This document shows, piece by piece, positions 36,308-46,259 of a stretch of DNA of 64,000 nt (position 1 is the stretch's first letter; each line of letters opens with the position of its first letter). The stretch covers positions 124,001-188,000 of the forward strand of contig JAQZBQ010000002.1 of assembly GCA_029237825.1 (NCBI GenBank). The letters are read 5' to 3'. The DNA is from Bacteroidota bacterium (GTDB lineage Bacteria; Bacteroidota; Bacteroidia; B-17B0; Aurantibacillaceae). The translations under genes and the position numbers were made by a program. The notes under the pieces were generated by a model. It did no database searches. It had not been told where the DNA came from and saw nothing but the letters and a program-made list of their open reading frames with translations.

Positions 36308-36796
36308 ATGAAGACACCTATATTCATTTTCCTTTTCATTATAAGTAATATGATGGCTTCCCAGGAATTGCCTGTTTCTGGAGACCTTTTCGAAATTACC
36401 GGTGTTGCTTTAATTAACGACAAACGGGTATCCGATTATTCTGTTGCTGTGTATTTGGACGGAACTAAAATTGATTCGATTTTTGCAAAATCAAAAAGGT
36501 CCATTAAGTTTTATGTTGGGTTAAATAAGATCTATACTTTTTTGTATCAGAAGCCAGGGTATACGGACAAGATCATAATTGTGAATACACATGTGCCGGA
36601 AGGTTTGAAAACGCTTGCAGACAATACGTTTGATTTCTCTGTGGAATTATCAGGAGCTTTAACGGTGAATACTGAAGAGTTGGAAGATTATCCCGTAGCG
36701 GTATTATTAATTGATAAAGAAGAAGAAGTTCTGCAAGCGAGCGCAGATTATAATAAACTTACACATAAAGAAATAGAGATCAAAACTGGAAAATGA
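36308..36796 (+). CDS. Secreted hypothetical protein with one Ig/regulatory-like domain
   Basis: 162 residues with a signal peptide (MKTPIFIFLFIISNMMASQ). The mature part has a pattern seen in carboxypeptidase-regulatory-like domains: SGDLFEITGVALINDKRVSD, then SVAVYLDGTKIDSIFA, FYVGLNKIYTFLYQKPGY and KIIIVNTHVPEG. Such sandwiches are common on Bacteroidota envelope proteins and have no fixed activity. I do not recognise a specific family. Its TGA stop abuts, back to back, the stop of the convergent REC gene (TGATCA at 36794-36799). Confidence 0.65.
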   Translation: MKTPIFIFLFIISNMMASQELPVSGDLFEITGVALINDKRVSDYSVAVYLDGTKIDSIFAKSKRSIKFYVGLNKIYTFLYQKPGYTDKIIIVNTHVPEGLKTLADNTFDFSVELSGALTVNTEELEDYPVAVLLIDKEEEVLQASADYNKLTHKEIEIKTGK

Positions 36797-37264
36797 TCAG
36801 GATAACAATTTTTGGCGAAGCATAAATTCCAACTGCTCATTGTTCAGCAAAAGTTTTTCATTAAGTTCTTTTTGTTCTTTCTTTAACTGATAAATTTTAT
36901 GGGCGTTTTCGATGGTCTCTTTTAATTCTTCATCATTCCAGGGCTTTTGTAAATAATGATATATCTGGCCTTTGTTAATTGCGTCTTTAATAGCCTCCAT
37001 ATCGGCAAATCCGGTCAATAGGATCCTGATTTGGTCGGGATAAATTTTTACAACTTCTTCAAATAGTTCTGTACCAAGGGTTCCCGGCATCCGCTGATCC
37101 GAAATTAGTACGTGAATGTCGTTTCGCTCTAGTATTAGCCTTGCTTCGGCTGCGGATAGAGCAGTGAAGATGGAGAAGTGTCTGCGAAAGGAGGCTTTAA
37201 ATGATCGAAGGTTATTTTCCTCGTCATCCACATAAAGAACATTTATCAGTGGTTTGATGGCCAT
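36797..37264 (-). CDS. Stand-alone receiver (REC) protein
   Basis: 155 residues: one receiver domain with VLYVDDEENNLRSFKASFR, phospho-Asp in HVLISDQRMPGTLGTEL, LLTGFADMEAIKDAI and the conserved Lys in YHYLQKPWNDEEL, then a helical, charged tail (KIYQLKKEQKELNEKLLLN) and no output domain. The receiver is of the type found in front of HD-GYP or PP2C domains and closely resembles the receiver of the hybrid kinase at 42699 (same YVDDEENN, DQRMPG and QKPW motifs). It is transcribed away from the Rv1355c-like operon across a 179-bp gap, so both could share regulation, and it is probably a component of that system. Confidence 0.85.
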   Translation of the reverse strand: MAIKPLINVLYVDDEENNLRSFKASFRRHFSIFTALSAAEARLILERNDIHVLISDQRMPGTLGTELFEEVVKIYPDQIRILLTGFADMEAIKDAINKGQIYHYLQKPWNDEELKETIENAHKIYQLKKEQKELNEKLLLNNEQLEFMLRQKLLS

Positions 37265-37443
37265 TTTTTATTGATGTTAAAAAGCAAATCAGTTTTAAAG
37301 GTAAAAAAAATAGTGAAAATTTTCTTATGCATATCAAATATTATAGGCATTAAATTGGAAAAATGAATTACCTTGGTAATCAACAAAACCCTTTGTTATA
37401 ACTCCACTAGTTCTTTTTATTTTAAAATTTAATTTATGCCCCT

Positions 37444-39774
37444 ATGAAAGAAAAATTAGATAATTATGTAAAGAGACAAAGAGCCCCGGAGAATGTTTGC
37501 GTGCCAGTTTTTTACCGGATGGCTAATCCTGAGGACAGAAAAAAAATGGAGGCACTGTTGGAGGGAAACTCCAATATATCAGTTTTTGATGAGTTAATCG
37601 GTCAACTTGAAGAACTCGTTAAGTGTAAAAATCCAACGATCAGGTTTACGAAGGAAACTTTGTCGGAAGCAGTGTTAAAGTATGTAGGCGACACGCCGTT
37701 GGAACAGTACGGTGTTTGGGTGTATTATCCATGGTCGGAAAGACTGATCCATGTTTTGGATGAAGAAGAATTTGTATTCGTTAGAACGAACAGAAATCAA
37801 TATAAAATAACTCCCGAAGAGGAAGAGCTTCTTGCTAAGAAGAAGATCGGTGTCATAGGATTGTCTGTTGGAAAAGCGATAGCACTTACCCTTGCTATGG
37901 AAAGGATTTGTGGAGAGATACGCATTGCCGATTTTGATGTGATAGAGCTATCAAATTTAAACCGGATCCAAACCGGGATTCAGAATTTTGGAATAAAAAA
38001 AACGGTTGTCGTGGCACGGGAGATTGCTGAAATCGATCCCTATTTGAAAGTAATTACTTTTCCGGAGGGTTTGACAGAAGAAAATGTAGACGATTTTTTT
38101 GTTAAAGGAGGAAAGCTTGATATCTGTATTGAGGTATGTGATGGTTTGTATACGAAAATTTTCTCGAGACAAAAGGCTAAAGAATATGCAATTCCGGTAG
38201 TTATGAATTCCAGTGATCGAGGAACAACAGATATTGAGCGATATGATTTAAACCCTGAAATGCCGCTTCTGCATGGTTTAATTGATCATTTGGATCTGGA
38301 TCTGGTAAAACAAGCTAAAACAAACGAAGAGAAAGTGCCTTACTTACTTCCTATGCTGGGCGTTGAAACCTCATCAACACGCTTGAAGGCCTCTATGCTT
38401 GAAATTGAAGAAACGATCACGACCTGGCCACAATTGGCGTCCGGGGTAATTTTGGGTGGTGGAATTGTTACGGATGTTTGCAGGCGTATGCTTTTAGGGC
38501 AGCTGAAAGATTCAGGACGTTTTTTTGTTGATCTTGAAGATATTATACATGATAAAGACCGGCCTGCACCCGTGGAAACGAAGTTGGCTTTATCAGATTC
38601 CCTTACCAATGAGGATATGCTGGCGGTAATCAAACAGCATAATATTCCCGAGCTTAATGAACAAATTTTACTTCCGAAAGAAACGGTTGACGAACTGGTA
38701 AAGTTTGCATGCATGGCTCCTTCAGGGGCAAACATACAGTCGTGGCAATGGGTACACCATGGCAGAAGCCTTTATTTATTCAGGAATGATATTTATACCG
38801 CAGGCTTGCTGGATTGTAAAAAAACCACAATGATAAATGGCTTAGGCGCAGCGTTGGAAAATCTTGTATTGAAAGCGCATGACCTGAAACTGGAAGTAAT
38901 CTCCGACGTGCTTCCTAATCTTAACGAAAACAGTAAGCTTATCGCTGTTATCCGGTTTTTTGATAAATGGTTACCGCAATATGCAAATCGCATTGAACCA
39001 CACATTTGTGATAGTCTGGTTTCTGCAATTCCTATTCGTGAAACAAATAGAAATATTGTGGCGAGAAAGAGGATTTCACGAGAAAGGTTACTCCCGTTGG
39101 TGGATTTAGCGCGAACTGTGAAAGGAGGGGATTTGATCCTGATTGACGATGAAGCACTTATGGATAAAATTGGTGTGGTAACCGGGAAGGTTGACAGGAT
39201 GCGTATCATGCATAAAGGAGGACATGATGATTTTCATGGAGAAGTTAGGTGGAATGAGCAAGAAGTAAATATGTTGAAGAATGGTGTGGATCTTTTAGGA
39301 ACTGTTGACCTAACGCCTACCGAACTTGCAGGGTGGACCGTAGCTAAGAACTGGAACGTGATTAATCACCTGAATGAATGGAAATTGGGAAGCGGCCTTG
39401 AAAAAATTCAGCGAAAAAACGTTGCATCAGCCTCGGCTTTAGGGTTACTCACCATGCCGGAATTTTCTAATAATGCTTTTTTTGAAGCGGGCAGGGCCTT
39501 GGAGAGGATTTGGCTTGCTGCTAATAAAGACGGCATCGCGGTGCACACCTGCTCTTTATCAACACTTATTTTTAATACGTTAAAATATGCTGATAATACT
39601 GGGTTTTCAGAGTATATGGAAAAAGAAGCCTGGGAGTTGCGAAAGGATTTTGAAAAACTTTTTGCACTCAGCAATTCAAAAGTGGATGTATTGTTGATCC
39701 GCTTTTTCATAGCACCTCCACCAAAGCGTAGATCGGTTCGGTATCCACTGGAACGAGTTCTCAGTTATTTGTAA
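37444..39774 (+). CDS. ThiF-nitroreductase fusion protein (Rv1355c/MoeY-like)
   Basis: 776 residues. After a 120-residue N-terminal part comes an E1-like ThiF/MoeB domain (about 130-330): nucleotide-binding KKIGVIGLSVGKAIALTL, the acidic strand DFDVIELSNLNRIQTG, IEVCDGLYTKIFSR and MNSSDRGTTDIE. No CxxC zinc pair is visible. The second half (about 415-760) is nitroreductase-like, an FMN fold: ACMAPSGANIQSWQW, NGLGAALENLVLKAH, RETNRNIVARK, GWTVAKNWNVINHLN. The same fusion is known from mycobacterial Rv1355c (MoeY) and Bacteroidota relatives; its reaction is unknown. Adenylation plus flavin redox is expected by analogy. It heads a five-gene operon with an acyltransferase-fold protein and signalling proteins. 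Confidence 0.85.
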   Translation: MKEKLDNYVKRQRAPENVCVPVFYRMANPEDRKKMEALLEGNSNISVFDELIGQLEELVKCKNPTIRFTKETLSEAVLKYVGDTPLEQYGVWVYYPWSERLIHVLDEEEFVFVRTNRNQYKITPEEEELLAKKKIGVIGLSVGKAIALTLAMERICGEIRIADFDVIELSNLNRIQTGIQNFGIKKTVVVAREIAEIDPYLKVITFPEGLTEENVDDFFVKGGKLDICIEVCDGLYTKIFSRQKAKEYAIPVVMNSSDRGTTDIERYDLNPEMPLLHGLIDHLDLDLVKQAKTNEEKVPYLLPMLGVETSSTRLKASMLEIEETITTWPQLASGVILGGGIVTDVCRRMLLGQLKDSGRFFVDLEDIIHDKDRPAPVETKLALSDSLTNEDMLAVIKQHNIPELNEQILLPKETVDELVKFACMAPSGANIQSWQWVHHGRSLYLFRNDIYTAGLLDCKKTTMINGLGAALENLVLKAHDLKLEVISDVLPNLNENSKLIAVIRFFDKWLPQYANRIEPHICDSLVSAIPIRETNRNIVARKRISRERLLPLVDLARTVKGGDLILIDDEALMDKIGVVTGKVDRMRIMHKGGHDDFHGEVRWNEQEVNMLKNGVDLLGTVDLTPTELAGWTVAKNWNVINHLNEWKLGSGLEKIQRKNVASASALGLLTMPEFSNNAFFEAGRALERIWLAANKDGIAVHTCSLSTLIFNTLKYADNTGFSEYMEKEAWELRKDFEKLFALSNSKVDVLLIRFFIAPPPKRRSVRYPLERVLSYL

Positions 39775-39806
39775 GAATATATTTTGAAACAGGTTAATAA
39801 CTTTTT

Positions 39807-40526
39807 GTGAGTGATAAGGTTGAAATAAAAATAAAAGTATTCAGGGCTATTGATGAACCGGATTTGTGCGCCAAATATCTTAAGGGTCACGAAGAAGTAC
39901 TGTCTATCTATTATGGATTACACAAGGTAACGTCCAATAATCCTGAATGGCCAAATAATCCACAGGTATACGTTATTACTGCCGAATCCATTTCAGATGG
40001 AGAAATTCTGTGCGGCATTCGTGTAAATAAAGTGGGAGGAACACAACCACTGCCCGTTGAAACCGCAATAGGAAAAGTTGACCCTCGCATACACGACTTA
40101 ATAAAAAGCTATGAACATAAAGGTGCCGGTGAGCTTTGTGGCTTATGGAATTCAAGAAAGGTTGCAGGCAAAGGACTAAGTTTTTTACTTACACGAATGG
40201 GTATTTCCATCTTAAATCAATTAAAAGTAAATGTGATGTTTGGCATTTGCGCAGAATTAACGCTACCCATGTTTAAAAATGTGGGATTTGAAATTGAACG
40301 CTCACTGGGGAATAATGGAGAATTCCATTATCCAAAGGCTGATCTCCTTGCTTTTTCCCTCATTATGAAAGACGCGATTTCTCTTGATTCCGCCGATCCT
40401 GTTGAACGCGAAAAAATTTTTAACTTACGAAACATTTTAAAACAAAGTGTTTTGGAAAAAGGACCAAAAGGGGAATTGTATATTGAATATAATTTAGCAG
40501 TGCCAAAATCATGGATAATTATCTAA
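39807..40526 (+). CDS. GNAT-fold protein, possible acyltransferase
   Basis: 239 residues from a GTG start at 39807 (a TTG two bases earlier is immediately followed by a stop). The centre has the GNAT core: AGELCGLWNSRKVAGKGLSF (beta-4 and the acyl-CoA pyrophosphate loop, here with AGKGL), LLTRMGISILNQLKVNVMFG, then LTLPMFKNVGFEIERSLG. The closing NNGEFHYPKADLLAFSLIM recalls FeeM and autoinducer-synthase-type proteins more than ordinary ribosomal or antibiotic GNATs, but that is an impression only. The downstream sensor kinase gene overlaps it by 16 bp, so the two are tightly coupled. Confidence 0.68.
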   Translation: MSDKVEIKIKVFRAIDEPDLCAKYLKGHEEVLSIYYGLHKVTSNNPEWPNNPQVYVITAESISDGEILCGIRVNKVGGTQPLPVETAIGKVDPRIHDLIKSYEHKGAGELCGLWNSRKVAGKGLSFLLTRMGISILNQLKVNVMFGICAELTLPMFKNVGFEIERSLGNNGEFHYPKADLLAFSLIMKDAISLDSADPVEREKIFNLRNILKQSVLEKGPKGELYIEYNLAVPKSWIII

Positions 40527-42688
40527 AATATAGGAATCCAAATATCCCGATTTACTGGTTAGTTATCTTTACCGTTCTTGGATTTAGGGCGTTATCAGGT
40601 GCAAATGTGAAGTCGCCCGTAATAGCATTTACCGATAATCAACCAGATATCTATATCGGTAAATCAGTAAGTATATTAAAAGATCGCACCAATGCTTTAA
40701 GGGTTGGCGAAGTACTATCTGCGGGAAAATTTGTTCAAAGCAAACAATCAGTGCCCAATTTAGGTGTGTCTTCATCAGCCTTTTGGCTGAAATTTACCCT
40801 TCAAAACCGATCCTCTTATGAAAACCTGCTTTTAGAAGTCGCTAACCCTTCGCTTGATGAAATTGAATTGTATAGCGTGGATTCTACCGGACTGTGTCAA
40901 TTTATAAAAATGGGGGAGTACCTTCCGTTCTATCAGCGGGAATTTGAGCATCCCAGTTATATTTTCAGATTAAAGATTAAGAAAGGTGCTTCAATAAAAG
41001 TTTTAATGCGCTTTAAGTGTAATGAAGATATGTCGTTACCCATTAAAATCGGATCAGTAGTTTCCATCATGGATTCAATCCGGATGAAAGACCTTTTGTT
41101 TGGATTGTACGCAGGTATAATGATGGTGATGTTTTTGTATAATGCCTTTATTTATATTACAACCAAGGAAAAAAGTTACCTCTATTATATCGTTTATATT
41201 TTAGCGGTTACATTAACCCAAATCTGTTTTCAAGGATATACATATCAGTTTTTGTGGAGCGGTTCTCCCTGGTTGGCTCAAAGAAGCATTGTTTTACTGA
41301 GTGCTTTTGTAGGAATTAGTGCAGGAGAATTTGCGAAAGTGTTTCTGGAAATAAAAACTCAGCTTCCCAAACTTAGTAAATTTTTCATTTTGTTTTATCT
41401 GAGTTATGGCATATGTATTTTCCTTGCGGTATTTTATAAAAGCAATATGCAATTATTAAACATAACGGCCTTATCTATTTCTCTATTCATATTATGTATT
41501 GCAGTTATATTAGCGTTGAGAGGCCAACGCCCGGCTAAATTTTTTTTAACTGCCTGGGTTGTATTTTTGATCGGGGTAATTGTATTTGCTTTGAAGAATG
41601 AAGGTCTTTTACCATATAACAATTTAACCATTTATACTATGCCTGCCGGATCTGCCATTGAAGCGATCCTTTTATCATTAGCGTTAGCTGACCGGATCAA
41701 TATTCTTAAACGCGAAAAAGAATTTTCACAACGTATGGCACTGGAGACGCTCCTTGAAAATGAGAAATTGATCAAAGAACAGAATATAATTCTTGAACAA
41801 AAAGTTAATGAACGTACGATTGCATTAAAACACAGTAACGACGAGCTTACTGCAACCCTCGAAGATTTGAAGGATACGCAAACGCAATTGGTTAGTGTGG
41901 AAAAAATGGCTTCCCTTGGTCAGTTAACTGCAGGTATCGCCCATGAAATCAATAATCCCATTAATTTTGTAAGCGCAAATATTAAGCCGTTAAAACTGGA
42001 TATACAAGATGTGCTGGAGCTTGTGGATAAATATGAATCGTTGAATTTACCGAAAGGTCAGGAGGAGTATGACAAAATTGAAGACTTTAAACAAAGTATT
42101 GATTATGAGTATCTCAAGAAGGAGATGGCTGAATTACTCTCGGGAATTGAAGAAGGTGCCAAACGAACCGCAGAAATTGTTAAAGGACTGAAAAACTTTT
42201 CGCGGTTGGACGAGCGGGATGTTAAAATCGCAGATATTAATGAAGGTATTGATTCGACTTTGATTTTATTGCGAAACGTGCTTACTCCCGAGATTAAAGT
42301 TAATGTGCAGCTTGACAATGTTTCTAAGATTGAATGCCTTCCCGGCAAGTTGAACCAGGTGTTTATGAATTTGCTTACGAATGCCATATATGCCCTTAAT
42401 AAATCTGAATCAGGAAGGGACAAAATCCTTGCAGTCAAAACATTTGAACAAAACGACCAGGTCTATGTTTTAATTGAGGACACTGGAATGGGTATGACAC
42501 CCGAAACAAAAAAACGTGTATTTGATCCATTCTTTACAACTAAAGAAGTTGGAGAAGGAACCGGCTTAGGCATGGCAATTGTATTTAAAATCATAGAAAG
42601 TCACGGCGCTAAAATTGAAATTGAAAGTGAGTGGGGAAAAGGAACGGCCATAAAATTGATATTCAATAAAAAAATGAATTTAATATAA
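40511..42688 (+). CDS. 7TMR-DISM sensor histidine kinase
   Basis: 725 residues. The N-terminus has a membrane signal (IYWLVIFTVLGFRALSGA), then a periplasmic 7TMR-DISMED2 domain (about 55-185; FWLKFTLQNRSSYENLLLEV, DEIELYSVDS, YIFRLKIKKG), seven membrane helices (about 190-400), a coiled-coil linker, and a class I kinase core: H-box LTAGIAHEINNPINFVS near residue 480, N-box NLLTNAIYAL, EDTGMGMTPETKKRVFDPFF, and GLGMAIVFKII. DISMED2 folds resemble carbohydrate-binding modules, so an external small ligand is likely. It starts inside the GNAT gene (16-bp overlap), and the hybrid kinase follows after 10 bp. Confidence 0.9.
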   Translation: MDNYLKYRNPNIPIYWLVIFTVLGFRALSGANVKSPVIAFTDNQPDIYIGKSVSILKDRTNALRVGEVLSAGKFVQSKQSVPNLGVSSSAFWLKFTLQNRSSYENLLLEVANPSLDEIELYSVDSTGLCQFIKMGEYLPFYQREFEHPSYIFRLKIKKGASIKVLMRFKCNEDMSLPIKIGSVVSIMDSIRMKDLLFGLYAGIMMVMFLYNAFIYITTKEKSYLYYIVYILAVTLTQICFQGYTYQFLWSGSPWLAQRSIVLLSAFVGISAGEFAKVFLEIKTQLPKLSKFFILFYLSYGICIFLAVFYKSNMQLLNITALSISLFILCIAVILALRGQRPAKFFLTAWVVFLIGVIVFALKNEGLLPYNNLTIYTMPAGSAIEAILLSLALADRINILKREKEFSQRMALETLLENEKLIKEQNIILEQKVNERTIALKHSNDELTATLEDLKDTQTQLVSVEKMASLGQLTAGIAHEINNPINFVSANIKPLKLDIQDVLELVDKYESLNLPKGQEEYDKIEDFKQSIDYEYLKKEMAELLSGIEEGAKRTAEIVKGLKNFSRLDERDVKIADINEGIDSTLILLRNVLTPEIKVNVQLDNVSKIECLPGKLNQVFMNLLTNAIYALNKSESGRDKILAVKTFEQNDQVYVLIEDTGMGMTPETKKRVFDPFFTTKEVGEGTGLGMAIVFKIIESHGAKIEIESEWGKGTAIKLIFNKKMNLI

Positions 42689-42698
42689 CGGTTTTTCA

Positions 42699-43787
42699 AT
42701 GGCAAAGATCAAGGTATTATATGTTGATGATGAGGAAAATAACCTTATTGCATTCCGCGCGAATTTTAGAAAAATTTATGAGGTGTACACCGCCCTAAGT
42801 GCCCAGGATGCGTTAGAGATTTTAAAAGATCACATCATACAGATTGTCATTTCCGATCAGAGAATGCCTGGAATTACCGGTGTAGAATTCCTTGAACAGG
42901 TTGTGGATTTATATCCCGATACGATTCGCTTGTTAATTACAGGGCAAGCTGACATTGAAGTAGTTATTGAAGCAATTAACCGGGGCCAGGTAAGTAAATA
43001 CATCCAAAAGCCGTGGGACTGGGATAAGTTGTCGGTCGCCATTGATAATTGTGTTACACTTTACACATCTCGCGTGCAACTAAAAAGTAAGAATGAAGAA
43101 CTTCAAAAGATTAATGAAGAACTTAATAAATTCGTTTACAGCGTTTCTCATGACTTAAGATCGCCATTAACCTCTATTCTTGGAATTATCAATTTATCAC
43201 ATCTACTTCCCGAGCTGGAAAATGCGAAACCTTATTTTAACATGATCGAAAGTCGCGTGTTAAAATTGGATGGATTAATCAGGAAAATAATTGATTATTA
43301 TAAGAATGCACGCTCTGATGAGGAAATTGTACCAGTGGCTTTTGAACCGCTACTAATGTCTGTTTGGGAAAATTTAAAACCTCACGATCAGTCCATTGAT
43401 TTTAAATTGCATGTGAATCAGGGTACGACTTTTGCTGGTGATATATACCGAATAGGAGTGGTTATGGAAAATTTGATTTCTAATGCTATTAAATACCAGA
43501 TTCCAGAGTCAACAAACCGGCATATAGATGTGAAAGTAGATGTTAATGATATAAATGCAAGGTTAGTAATCTCTGATAATGGAGTTGGAATTAAGGAGGA
43601 ATATTTCCAAAGTATATTCAGGCTTTTTTTTCGCACTGAGGATGCAGTTCATACAGAAGGGACGGGAATCGGATTATATATTGTAAAAGAAGCGGTTGAT
43701 AAAATGAGCGGGGAAATAATCCTGAAATCTAATATTAATCAAGGTACCGCCTTTGAAATTATATTACCAAACAAAAAACAGGAATGA
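42699..43787 (+). CDS. REC-histidine kinase hybrid
   Basis: 362 residues: an N-terminal receiver (KVLYVDDEENNLIAFRANF, phospho-Asp in IVISDQRMPGITG, LLITGQADIEVVIEAI, YIQKPWDWDKL) joined by a short helix to a kinase core with the H-box VYSVSHDLRSPLTSILG near residue 150, an N-box NLISNAIKYQ, SDNGVGIKEEYF and GTGIGLYIVKEAV. It has no membrane segment, so it probably takes phosphate from the upstream 7TMR-DISM kinase on its receiver and controls its own kinase activity. Its ATGA overlap with the next REC gene marks that protein as a likely phosphate acceptor. Confidence 0.9.
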   Translation: MAKIKVLYVDDEENNLIAFRANFRKIYEVYTALSAQDALEILKDHIIQIVISDQRMPGITGVEFLEQVVDLYPDTIRLLITGQADIEVVIEAINRGQVSKYIQKPWDWDKLSVAIDNCVTLYTSRVQLKSKNEELQKINEELNKFVYSVSHDLRSPLTSILGIINLSHLLPELENAKPYFNMIESRVLKLDGLIRKIIDYYKNARSDEEIVPVAFEPLLMSVWENLKPHDQSIDFKLHVNQGTTFAGDIYRIGVVMENLISNAIKYQIPESTNRHIDVKVDVNDINARLVISDNGVGIKEEYFQSIFRLFFRTEDAVHTEGTGIGLYIVKEAVDKMSGEIILKSNINQGTAFEIILPNKKQE

Positions 43788-44185
43788 GTAAAAAAATTAA
43801 CGTAATGCTGATCGATGACAATAAAATCGATTTGTTTATACATAACGAATTTGTAAAAAAAATGAATGTGTTAGGGTCGATAACCCAATTTTGCTTCGCT
43901 AAGGAGGCCCTTGCATTCTTGAAAACTAAAGGATCAGATGAATGGCCGGATCTTATCTTGCTCGATATACATATGCCAATTATGAATGGGTTTGAATTTT
44001 TAGATGAATTTGCTCAACTTCCGGTTACCCTGCGGCAAAAATGTTCAATTGTAATTGTTTCATCCTCGTTAGACAACATCGACCACGCGAAAGCTGAAGA
44101 GAATAAATTGGTGTTAGCCTTATTTGAAAAGCCATTGAATATAAAGCGACTAACGGAATTCCTTCAGGAAAATAAAATCATTTAG
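43784..44185 (+). CDS. Stand-alone receiver protein, Rcp1-like
   Basis: 133 residues, a lone receiver of the Rcp1 type that usually pairs with soluble kinases: MLIDDNKIDLFIHNEF, phospho-Asp in LILLDIHMPIMNGFEFL, IVIVSSSLDNIDHA, conserved Lys in ALFEKPLNIKRL. No output domain. Its ATG overlaps the stop of the hybrid kinase by 4 bp. It is the last gene of the five-gene operon; where the phosphate ends up is not visible in this window. Confidence 0.9.
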   Translation: MSKKINVMLIDDNKIDLFIHNEFVKKMNVLGSITQFCFAKEALAFLKTKGSDEWPDLILLDIHMPIMNGFEFLDEFAQLPVTLRQKCSIVIVSSSLDNIDHAKAEENKLVLALFEKPLNIKRLTEFLQENKII

Positions 44186-44291: not shown

Positions 44292-46259
44292 ATGAAGAAC
44301 CTATATCTTTTTATCCTTTTATTGCCTGTTTATACTGTTTTATTTGCTCAATCCTGGAATTTAAAACTGAAAAGTACTGTTGAGCTCAGGACATTTAAAC
44401 TCACTAATAAAATTGAGACCTCTGAAATAAAGCTTGCTGGTGCGACTATCACGCTCAATAAGGGTGGTTCCATAGTTTCACAGATTCAAAGTGACGGTAA
44501 CGGTGAATTTATCATTGATGTGCCAGCAAATGGCGATTACCTATTAGTGGTAACCTATCCGGGTTGTAACGCGAAACGTTTTGCTATATCCACCAATGGC
44601 GTACCTGAAAATATTGTTAACGAAAAATATTCTCCCTCTTTTGGTATTGAAGGTGTTGTGATGGCCAAAGGTTTGCCTGGTATCGATTATGGTTTATTAC
44701 AGCAACCTTTGGCGAGAATTGCGTACACAGACAAAGGAAAAAAATTTACTCATAATCAGATCTATACAGACCAAATGCTGGGTGGATTAATGAACCTAAG
44801 AAACGCGGAAAATGCATTAATGGAAAGTTTTACCAGTGCAAATAGCGCTGGCGACATTGCCCTTAATAAAGGCGATTGTGCTTTAGCCAAAATCCAATTT
44901 GAGAAGGCGTTGAATATTATTCCCGGGGAAAGGTATCCGGGCGATCAATTGATTCGTGTAGGAAACTGCTTAAAAGAAAAGGAGCTGGCAGAAAAGAAAA
45001 ATGCCGAGAAAGCCGCTCAAGAGAAGTTAGCTGCAGAGAAAGCAGCACAGGAAAAGTTATCTGCTGAGAAAGCCGCACAGGAAAAGTTAGCTGCTGAGAA
45101 AGCTGCTAAGGAAAAGTTAGCTGCTGAAAAAGCCGCTCAGGAGAAGTTAGCTGCCGAGAAAGCTGCTCAGGAAAAGTTGGCTGCTGAAAAAGCCGCTCAG
45201 GAAAAGTTAGCTGCAGAGAAAGCGGCACAGGAAAAGTTGGCTGCTGAAAAAGCCGCTCAGGAAAAATTAGCTGCTGAGAAAGCGGCACAGGAAAAGTTAG
45301 CTGCTGAGAAAGTCGCTCAGGAAAAGTTAGCTGCTGAAAAGGCCGCTCAGGTAAAGTTGGCTGCTGAAAAAGCTGCACAAGAGAAGTTAGCTGCTGAAAA
45401 AGCTGCACAAGAGAAGTTAGCTGCTGAGAAAGCTGCACAGGAAAAGTTAGCTGCGGAGAAAGCAGCACAGGAAAAGTTAGCTACGGAGAAAGCAGCTCAG
45501 GAGAAGTTAGCTGCTGAAAAAGCAGCACAGGAAAAGGTAGCTGCTGAGAAGGCGGCACAAGAAAAGTTAGCTGCGGAAAAAGCCGCTCAGGAAAAATTAG
45601 CTGCTGAGAAAGCGGCACAGGAAAAGTTAGCTGCTGAAAAAGCGGCACAGGAAAAGTTAGCAGCTGAAAAAGCCGCTCAGGAAAAATTTGCTGCGGAAAA
45701 AGCTGCTCAAGAAAAGTTAGCTGCTGAGAAAGCTGCACAGGAAAAGTTAGCTGCCGAGAAAGCTGCTAAGGAAAAACTCGCAGCCGAGAATGAGAGGGCG
45801 ATGCAGCAAAAACGAATTGCGGAGAAAGCAGCACAGGAAAAGCTTGCCAAGGAAAACGAACGAAAAACGCAGGAACAAAAGCAGAAAATAGAAGAGCAAC
45901 GCCGATTGGATGAAAAGCTTGCCAAAGAGAAAGTAGAAGCAGAACGTTTGGCCGCTGAAAAAGCGGAAGCAGAGAAACTTGCGATCGCAGGGGGAAAAGA
46001 TCCTAAGATTATCACTCCGATTACTTCAGGAGCTGAAGCAATTTCCGATAAAATTGGGTCGGGTGATGCCAGGTATAGCATTCCTCAAACCCTGGGTGCT
46101 GGAAAATACAAAGAAACGGTGAAGCGCGGCGACGAATTATTTAAAATGAAACGTTATGCAGAGGCAAAACCGGTTTATGAAGAGGCTCTAAAGCAAAAGC
46201 CAGCAGACCCATATGCAACTTCCAAACTAGCTGAACTTGAAAAGCTGATTAAAAAGTAA
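44292..46259 (+). CDS. Secreted repeat protein with long Ala/Glu/Lys helix and terminal TPR
   Basis: 655 residues. Signal peptide ([20 protein letters not shown]); an Ig-like regulatory domain (about 25-110; [36 protein letters not shown]); a TPR-like helix pair ([17 protein letters not shown]); then a 260-residue stretch of 26 near-identical 10-residue units [10 protein letters not shown], followed by a less regular Glu/Lys-rich coil; and a closing TPR ([20 protein letters not shown]). The repeat should form one long, TolA-like alpha-helix, perhaps 39 nm, that could bridge the periplasm or hold the two TPR modules apart. Function unknown. It follows the signalling operon after 106 bp but no exact -7 element was seen. 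Confidence 0.8.
45001..45780 (+). repeat. 26-copy tandem 30-bp coding repeat
   Basis: Each 30-bp unit encodes [10 protein letters not shown] or a one-residue variant (Ser, Thr, Val, Phe or Lys substitutions in a few copies). The copies are in perfect register with no indels across 780 bp. Codons drift at third positions (gct/gcc/gca/gcg, gag/gaa), so the array is not freshly amplified in all parts, though several neighbouring units are almost identical in DNA. It is a likely site for length variation and assembly collapse. Confidence 0.95.

Follow-up and report, generated by a model that had tools for sequence, protein, structure and literature searches.

What does a gene pair with the look of small-molecule synthesis do beside a set of kinases and receivers? 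The question is raised by a block of six genes (36797-44185) in a stretch of 64,000 nucleotides, here called the window, from a Bacteroidota bacterium of the family Aurantibacillaceae (GenBank assembly GCA_029237825.1, contig JAQZBQ010000002.1, positions 124,001 to 188,000 of the forward strand). A preliminary description had proposed that the first two plus-strand genes make a compound which the kinases perceive. Our analysis supports this proposal by protein family, by fold, by gene linkage, and by an exchange of the sensor half of the kinase together with the type of tailoring enzyme. We thus consider it probable that the block is a self-contained make-and-sense circuit, in which a tailored acyl-amino-acid product would be sensed by the DISM kinase.

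The six open reading frames (ORFs) are confirmed at the positions first given for them. Five genes follow one another on the plus strand with spacings of 32, -16, 10 and -4 bp. They encode a 776-aa fusion of a TrzS-like ThiF/E1-like cyclase with a nitroreductase-superfamily flavin oxidase (37444..39774), a GNAT-fold protein (39807..40526, below also the synthase), a sensor kinase with DISMED2, seven-transmembrane (7TM) and HisKA/HATPase parts (40511..42688), a soluble REC-HisKA-HATPase protein with PhcR-like domain order (42699..43787, below the REC-kinase), and a lone receiver of 133 aa (43784..44185; Pfam REC, 49 bits), whose place equals that of PhcQ in phcBSRQ. Divergent from them on the minus strand is REC0, a lone receiver of 155 aa with a helical-looking tail (36797..37264; Pfam REC, 59.5 bits). 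The domains named at the outset are all found by Pfam, namely ThiF and Nitroreductase, DISMED2, 7TM, HisKA and HATPase, REC-HisKA-HATPase, and the two lone RECs, and the Pfam scan of the block's proteins likewise finds no DNA-binding or enzymatic output domain. The GNAT-fold call has no Pfam match behind it, but the AlphaFold model has a clear GNAT/acyl-synthase fold.

Is the neighbourhood of enzymes and kinase more than a local accident? We counted it in three partly overlapping samples (for example, L103 and L214 look alike): a phylum sample (395 genomes), a class sample (395 genomes) and a scan of named genomes, the last being the best 80 of 533 relatives and biased toward the window. A locus was taken as testable with at least 4.2 kb of contig available to look for the kinase. 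Overall, the synthase is directly followed by a DISM kinase in 12/12, 75/75 and 59/60 testable loci of the three samples, which rules out chance adjacency. The synthase occurs in 13 of the 395 genomes of the phylum sample, with 29-48% identity to the window protein, and is carried by all 11 genomes of that sample with a ThiF match above 140 bits, the genes being together (in G109 the ThiF gene is truncated by the contig end). By profile search it is present in 76 of the 395 genomes of the class sample, with a patchy distribution, and in 2 of 15 genomes of the window's own family. The block recurs in many Bacteroidota families, so that a linkage confined to close relatives is also ruled out, and the carrier genera with deposited strains are Pedobacter, Chitinophaga, Algoriphagus, Sphingobacterium, Mucilaginibacter and Taibaiella. 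The preliminary description had stated that its reading would fail if the genes were neighbours merely in close relatives, or if the enzyme genes usually occurred apart from kinases; the family breadth at such synthase identities speaks against the one, and the other is contradicted by a synthase lacking the DISM kinase at 1 of 147 testable loci. The link between ThiF and kinase is not universal, because no kinase is annotated beside ThiF in two plasmid loci outside Bacteroidota (Streptomyces and Mycobacterium dioxanotrophicus), whose gene tables are incomplete. Their ThiF proteins reach 435 and 349 bits, respectively, against the cassette ThiF profile. The Streptomyces one (L142, 5941-7739) consists of ThiF only and has 42% identity with the ThiF part of the window protein; its neighbouring GNAT has no match to the cassette GNAT profile, and about 5 kb away from this ThiF gene is one for a "sensor domain-containing protein". 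As a separate observation, a contig titled Azovibrio restrictus (L117) and one titled uncultured Bacteroides (L125) have identical cassette layout, gene lengths and gaps, and the former is probably a misbinned Bacteroidota contig.

As for the compound, the 776-aa protein scores 715.4 bits against NF005901, the Rv1355c/TrzS family, with a curated cut-off of 476. Pfam places ThiF at residues 122-272 and Nitroreductase from 410, and the protein divides into a cyclase (about 1-385) and a flavin oxidase (about 386-776). In the mycobacterial pathway, where Rv1355c is TrzS, tryptophan is acylated by TrzA, and purified M. smegmatis TrzS uses ATP to cyclise the acyl-tryptophan to an oxazolone, which it desaturates in a second, O2-dependent step, as reported in work of 2025 (PMC12856293). 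In the window protein, the ThiF-type Asp D233 is invariant across ten aligned relatives, and R602 (motif EVRW), aligned with Arg 539 of a 718-aa mycobacterial homologue, stands in a column that is Arg in 65 of 68 rows; judged from these alignments, D233 and R602 may be the equivalents of D217 and R540 of M. smegmatis TrzS.

For the GNAT protein, Pfam gives nothing at E 0.1, the sole NCBIfam match at this level (NleH, 13 bits against a cut-off of 450) is noise, and the comparison with PDB sequences gives nothing meaningful (best E 0.17); therefore its fold was compared. The AlphaFold (AF2) model has a mean confidence score (pLDDT) of 90.7, and the structural search places FeeM (2g0b) on top with Z 16.9 over 174 aa, tied with the Pseudomonas acyltransferase 1xeb (Z 16.4). 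ElaA (15.9), the coenzyme A (CoA)-dependent acyl-homoserine lactone (AHL) synthases RpaI and BjaI (15.8) and LasI (15.5) follow, the identity in the structural alignments with FeeM and the AHL synthases being 8-10%. Likewise, FeeM and BjaI are the published structural neighbours of TyzA (PMC10404671). Since the model is FeeM-like and the gene adjoins that of the ThiF-nitroreductase, the protein is predicted to be an N-acyl amino acid synthase, an analogue of TrzA, TyzA and OxzA by fold and gene context. The two genes together are probably an oxazolone synthase. With fair confidence, their compound derives from an N-acyl amino acid and, in cassettes with ThiF, is an oxazolone.

ThiF is not present everywhere. 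Scanning 158 loci gave 150 with a usable GNAT and a full-length kinase, and 126 non-redundant cassettes after 24 loci were dropped whose kinase was at least 80% identical to a retained one. Among the 126, we find 68 with ThiF-oxidase, 34 with ThiF alone, 16 with a UbiE-like methyltransferase, 2 with ICMT, 1 with an FAD oxidase, 3 in which just the oxidase part is visible, and 2 without a recognised tailoring enzyme. One of these two (L219) has a PF00891 O-methyltransferase between synthase and kinase; in the other (L197) no tailoring enzyme is seen. The enzyme names are backed by Pfam at the family level and are putative as to exact function, since the NCBIfam matches of four scanned tailoring proteins are all below the curated cut-offs. 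In the full locus set the methyltransferase (18/18), ICMT (2/2) and FAD oxidase (1/1) genes lie between synthase and kinase; of the ThiF genes, 98 precede the synthase and 33 stand between it and the kinase. The methyltransferase and ThiF kinds both occur within Mucilaginibacter, and both within Taibaiella. Among deposited strains, Chitinophaga eiseniae carries a ThiF cassette and Hufsiella ginkgonis a methyltransferase cassette. One locus (L182) has two synthases in tandem. In another (L063, ORF end about 7021), ThiF, oxidase and synthase form one ORF of 1006 aa, which we count in support of a joint pathway and which may be a sequencing or assembly error, as it comes from a metagenome assembly.

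Which parts of the cassette change with the tailoring enzyme? On FastTree trees of 120 labelled cassettes (111 labelled rows for REC0), a methyltransferase-versus-rest label needs 11 changes for GNAT, 11 for the kinase core and 9 for REC0, against 3 for DISMED2 and 1 for 7TM. Depending on the tree, 7TM needs 1 (FastTree and a 75-row tree) or 2 changes (a 70-row tree) and DISMED2 3 or 4 (70-row tree), the 70-row counts being upper bounds because a tree holding the methyltransferase group together was better. Approximately unbiased (AU) tests were made under a mixture model with 70 of the 126 cassettes, namely 16 with methyltransferase, 2 with ICMT, 1 with FAD oxidase and 51 of the 102 of ThiF type (every second one, the window included). 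With a group that had been chosen after the parsimony counts on the same data, one methyltransferase clade is rejected for the kinase core (log-likelihood difference 201, p 4e-17) and for GNAT (229, p 5e-99), and not rejected for the sensor (7TM p 0.54, DISMED2 p 0.85).

The pairwise identities show the pattern at close range. The 14 mixed-tailoring pairs that rank highest in kinase-core identity (69-75%) have sensor domains which are 21-41% identical. Above 70% core identity, pairs of different tailoring (n=9, mean core 72%) have 36% identity in 7TM and 29% in DISMED2, with 72% in GNAT and 76% in REC0, while pairs of ThiF type on both sides (n=71, mean core 77%) have 60% in 7TM and 37% in DISMED2. 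At core identities of 60-70%, the 7TM identity is 37% in mixed pairs (n=125), 45% in ThiF-ThiF pairs (n=243) and 56% in methyltransferase pairs (n=27). For example, the ThiF-oxidase cassette of Pedobacter glucosidilyticus (L100) and a methyltransferase cassette of Sphingobacteriaceae (L129) share 82% of GNAT, 69% of the core and 74% of REC0, and in the sensor 30% of DISMED2 and 40% of 7TM. In an identity profile along the kinase, 11 pairs drawn from the 14 mixed ones run below 6 same-tailoring controls to about residue 396 and equal them from the 422-446 window on, which places the swap boundary near residue 397 (about 41699); GNAT has no identity dip in the same 11-pair profile. The sensor half therefore appears, on the evidence of these sequences, to share its history with the tailoring type, and the synthase and the kinase core appear not to, a swap which indirectly supports the perception of the tailored product by the kinase. 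Such an exchange, in which the part specific for the signal varies and the relay stays the same, resembles that of comQXPA in Bacillus, and staphylococcal agr behaves similarly.

The distances between cassettes also fall into two co-varying blocks, in Mantel and half-sample figures that have no correction for shared ancestry beyond the controls given here. ThiF distances (102 cassettes) correlate with those of DISMED2 at r 0.55 against 0.30 with the kinase core, and the half-sample difference is 0.25, with a range of 0.12 to 0.38. On the other side, REC0 correlates with the kinase core at 0.64 against 0.41 with DISMED2, and the receiver of the REC-kinase at 0.49 against 0.02. With RpoB held constant in 30 genomes (some genes are missing in 10 of the 30, and the RpoB of G383 is partial), the correlations are 0.38 for DISMED2 and ThiF, 0.22 for kinase core and ThiF, 0.59 for kinase core and REC0, and -0.02 for DISMED2 and kinase core. 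The explanation that all cassette genes simply track the species tree is weakened by this control, since the two blocks remain.

In the kinase, Pfam gives DISMED2 at residues 50-180 and 7TM at 194-395, followed by HisKA/HATPase, and the model of residues 1-420 (pLDDT 92.3) has the RetS periplasmic fold (Z 16.6 over 137 residues) and then a bundle of long helices. DISMED2 is predicted to be periplasmic because of the N-terminal hydrophobic stretch and the family. Matches of the 7TM part to eukaryotic receptors were set aside, as their level may reflect the helical arrangement alone, and only the RetS match was used. DISM proteins are few in the six cassette genomes scanned for them: PF07695 has 13 matches at E 0.001, 12 of them over the cut-off, of which 6 are the cassette kinase, and in each of the six genomes the cassette kinase is the best match. 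Turning to the relay, a long protein starting with a window-type REC is found within 9 kb at 12/12, 64/75 and 51/60 testable loci, and 12, 60 and 49 of these proteins, respectively, have a recognisable kinase part. A short REC0-type receiver lies within 9 kb at 10/12, 63/75 and 53/60 loci, and the downstream lone receiver of 133 aa has a homologue at 4/12, 46/75 and 19/60. At the REC0 place, two loci (L058, 10911-11402; L216, 5289-5774) have a protein of 161-163 aa with no Pfam receiver match and a similar C-terminal end, apparently a degenerate receiver.

Taken together, the block would work as follows. The GNAT protein would N-acylate an amino acid, as its fold and the characterised TrzA and TyzA suggest. 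ThiF would adenylate the carboxylate and close a 5(4H)-oxazolone, and the flavin domain would desaturate it, to judge by the protein family and the residues conserved in it; sister cassettes would probably methylate or oxidise the acyl-amino acid instead, or leave it bare. The product may then leave the cytoplasm or partition to the periplasmic side, where the DISMED2/7TM half would bind it, tailoring type being co-inherited with exactly that half. From the kinase core, phosphate would pass to the REC-kinase and the lone receivers, as suggested by the domain order, by the co-evolution of core and receivers and by the precedent of phcBSRQ, and the outputs would act at other places of the genome. 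Most likely, the block serves signalling between cells, each type having a signal of its own.

Several results weigh against this interpretation. The mycobacterial end products, tryptazolones, are mostly cell-bound and enriched in pellets (PMC12856293), and the ORF list and Pfam scan recognise no exporter in the block. The GNAT fold by itself does not show the reaction, FeeM being tied in the model comparison with 1xeb, an acyl-CoA N-acyltransferase. GNAT distances track DISMED2 (0.47) and the kinase core (0.49) equally, and with RpoB held constant GNAT and DISMED2 correlate at merely 0.09. In ThiF-only cassettes the DISMED2 advantage is not significant, and the same is true for the oxidase domain. 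Over all pairs with core identity of at least 50%, the sensor effect amounts to little, 3.0 points in 7TM and -0.2 in DISMED2, because most such sensors are near the identity floor, and it is plain solely above about 60% core identity. Within the 16 methyltransferase cassettes the enzyme correlates with the core at 0.73, with GNAT at 0.78, with 7TM at 0.76 and with DISMED2 at 0.63; all genes correlate alike, and the idea that the methyltransferase tracks the sensor more than the core inside this group is unsupported. Gain and loss of the flavin domain are not followed by DISMED2 either, which needs 17 changes, against 16 for the core and 11 for 7TM. In addition, the REC-kinase is not universal, being absent from part of the loci in two samples (found in 64/75 and 51/60), and one locus (L238), a 64-bit outlier, has ThiF and GNAT without the DISM kinase.

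Three other explanations were weighed. Histidine kinases and receivers are ordinary in Bacteroidota, and the genes could be adjacent by descent or accident without common function; the near-fixed adjacency across many families, at such low synthase identities and with so patchy a presence, makes this extremely improbable. We consider it rather unlikely that sensing is private, the kinase using the product to gauge acyl-CoA, amino acids or the state of the envelope for feedback within the cell, and not as a signal between cells. The retention of most tryptazolones in cells and the missing exporter would fit such a gauge, yet a gauge should keep one chemistry, and the many tailoring types with their repeated changes look like signal diversification; moreover, the N-acyl-tryptophan intermediates are found chiefly in the supernatant (PMC12856293). 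Still less do we favour, and hold to be unlikely, that the acyl-oxazolone serves another purpose, as an envelope lipid, a redox or stress agent or an antimicrobial, and that the kinases control its synthesis upon an unrelated cue. RetS-type periplasmic domains sense varied cues, and the kinases lack an output domain that would connect them with density-controlled traits, both of which are in line with that possibility, as are the stress links and the antimicrobial N-acyl tyrosines discussed in PMC12856293. However, it leaves unexplained why the sensor half changes with the tailoring type while synthase, core and receivers differ in this respect. The make-and-sense circuit, with the tailored product as its signal, would account for that pattern.

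How does the block relate to known systems? In trzAS, tyzACB and oxzAB of Actinomycetota and Pseudomonadota, too, a FeeM-fold acyltransferase stands next to a ThiF cyclase that has a nitroreductase-type oxidase as its fusion partner or neighbour (PMC12856293, PMC10404671). Unlike in these, a two-component relay is attached here, the flavin domain is frequently absent, and methyltransferases or an FAD oxidase can stand in for the ThiF protein. The main texts of both papers do not contain the words kinase, two-component and sensor, and c-di-GMP genes are the only neighbours of this sort noted in the discussion of PMC12856293. The N-acyl (dehydro)tyrosine clusters of Stieleria, Thalassotalea and Massilia also have an N-acyl amino acid synthase with ThiF and nitroreductase (PMC12479983). 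The same paper gives methyltransferase genes for the Stieleria cluster, one of them UbiE-like and judged a less likely candidate; the word kinase is absent from its main text. N-acyl tyrosines are assigned there to Pseudomonadota, Actinomycetota and Planctomycetota, and the N-acyl amino acids which it reports for Bacteroidota are glycine lipids and flavolipins.

For the signalling side, the closest parallel is phcBSRQ of Ralstonia, which has a signal enzyme, a sensor kinase, a REC-histidine kinase and a lone receiver in one operon, with PhcR and PhcQ lacking DNA-binding domains (PMC8578825). In domain order, the sensor kinase, REC-kinase and lone receiver of the window equal PhcS, PhcR and PhcQ. 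The Ralstonia signal is a 3-hydroxy fatty acid methyl ester, the product of PhcB; the signal here probably derives from an acyl amino acid, through GNAT and a tailoring enzyme, and the DISMED2/7TM sensor is unlike that of phcBSRQ. PhcB is a methyltransferase, and the window block has GNAT and ThiF-oxidase and no methyltransferase; the cassette would work like Phc and is not classed as Phc. With the LuxI/LasI-type AHL synthases and FeeM the synthase fold is common, but the block has a membrane kinase in place of a LuxR-type receptor. The comQXPA locus of Bacillus likewise has a signal-modifying gene beside a kinase with a variable N-terminal membrane part and a conserved cytoplasmic part (PMC4008528); there the signal is a peptide and diversification is within species, while here small-molecule tailoring differs between genera and families, and inside Mucilaginibacter and Taibaiella. 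A literature search, made largely without subscription papers, found no report of such a synthase-kinase circuit in Bacteroidota.

The genes around the block add a few observations. Directly beyond REC0, a 162-aa protein without Pfam match (36308-36796) has a 25% identical relative near one other cassette (L224, 2603-3154). Downstream lies a 655-aa protein (44292-46259) that begins like CarboxypepD_reg and contains a long AEKAAQEKL repeat, and its histone-H1-like and extensin matches are apparent low-complexity artefacts. In one family (f66), five loci (L175, L185, L186, L193 and L196) have a gene of about 900 aa after the cassette, which in the L175 copy has no Pfam match and is AsmA-like by eye.

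In conclusion, the cassette can be described, by its sequence features, as a putative synthase-linked two-component signalling system with acyl-oxazolone-type chemistry. We regard the chances as evenly balanced that it represents an undescribed, widespread communication of Bacteroidota, with acyl-amino-acid signals from a FeeM/LuxI-fold synthase, interchangeable capping enzymes (oxazolone closure, methylation by three enzyme families, oxidation) and a block-swapped 7TMR-DISM sensor half, in which synthase, core and receivers would be constant and private dialects would result. The physiological role of oxazolones is termed a major unresolved question by the discoverers of the mycobacterial pathways (PMC12856293). 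As enzymes of the same kinds stand here almost always beside one receptor architecture, and in genera with deposited strains, this role is directly testable; the swap pattern predicts that chimeric receptors would have exchanged specificity, and the various cassettes supply natural candidate ligands, as a series, for 7TMR-DISM sensors. If the circuit is true, acyl-oxazolones would gain a receptor and a function.

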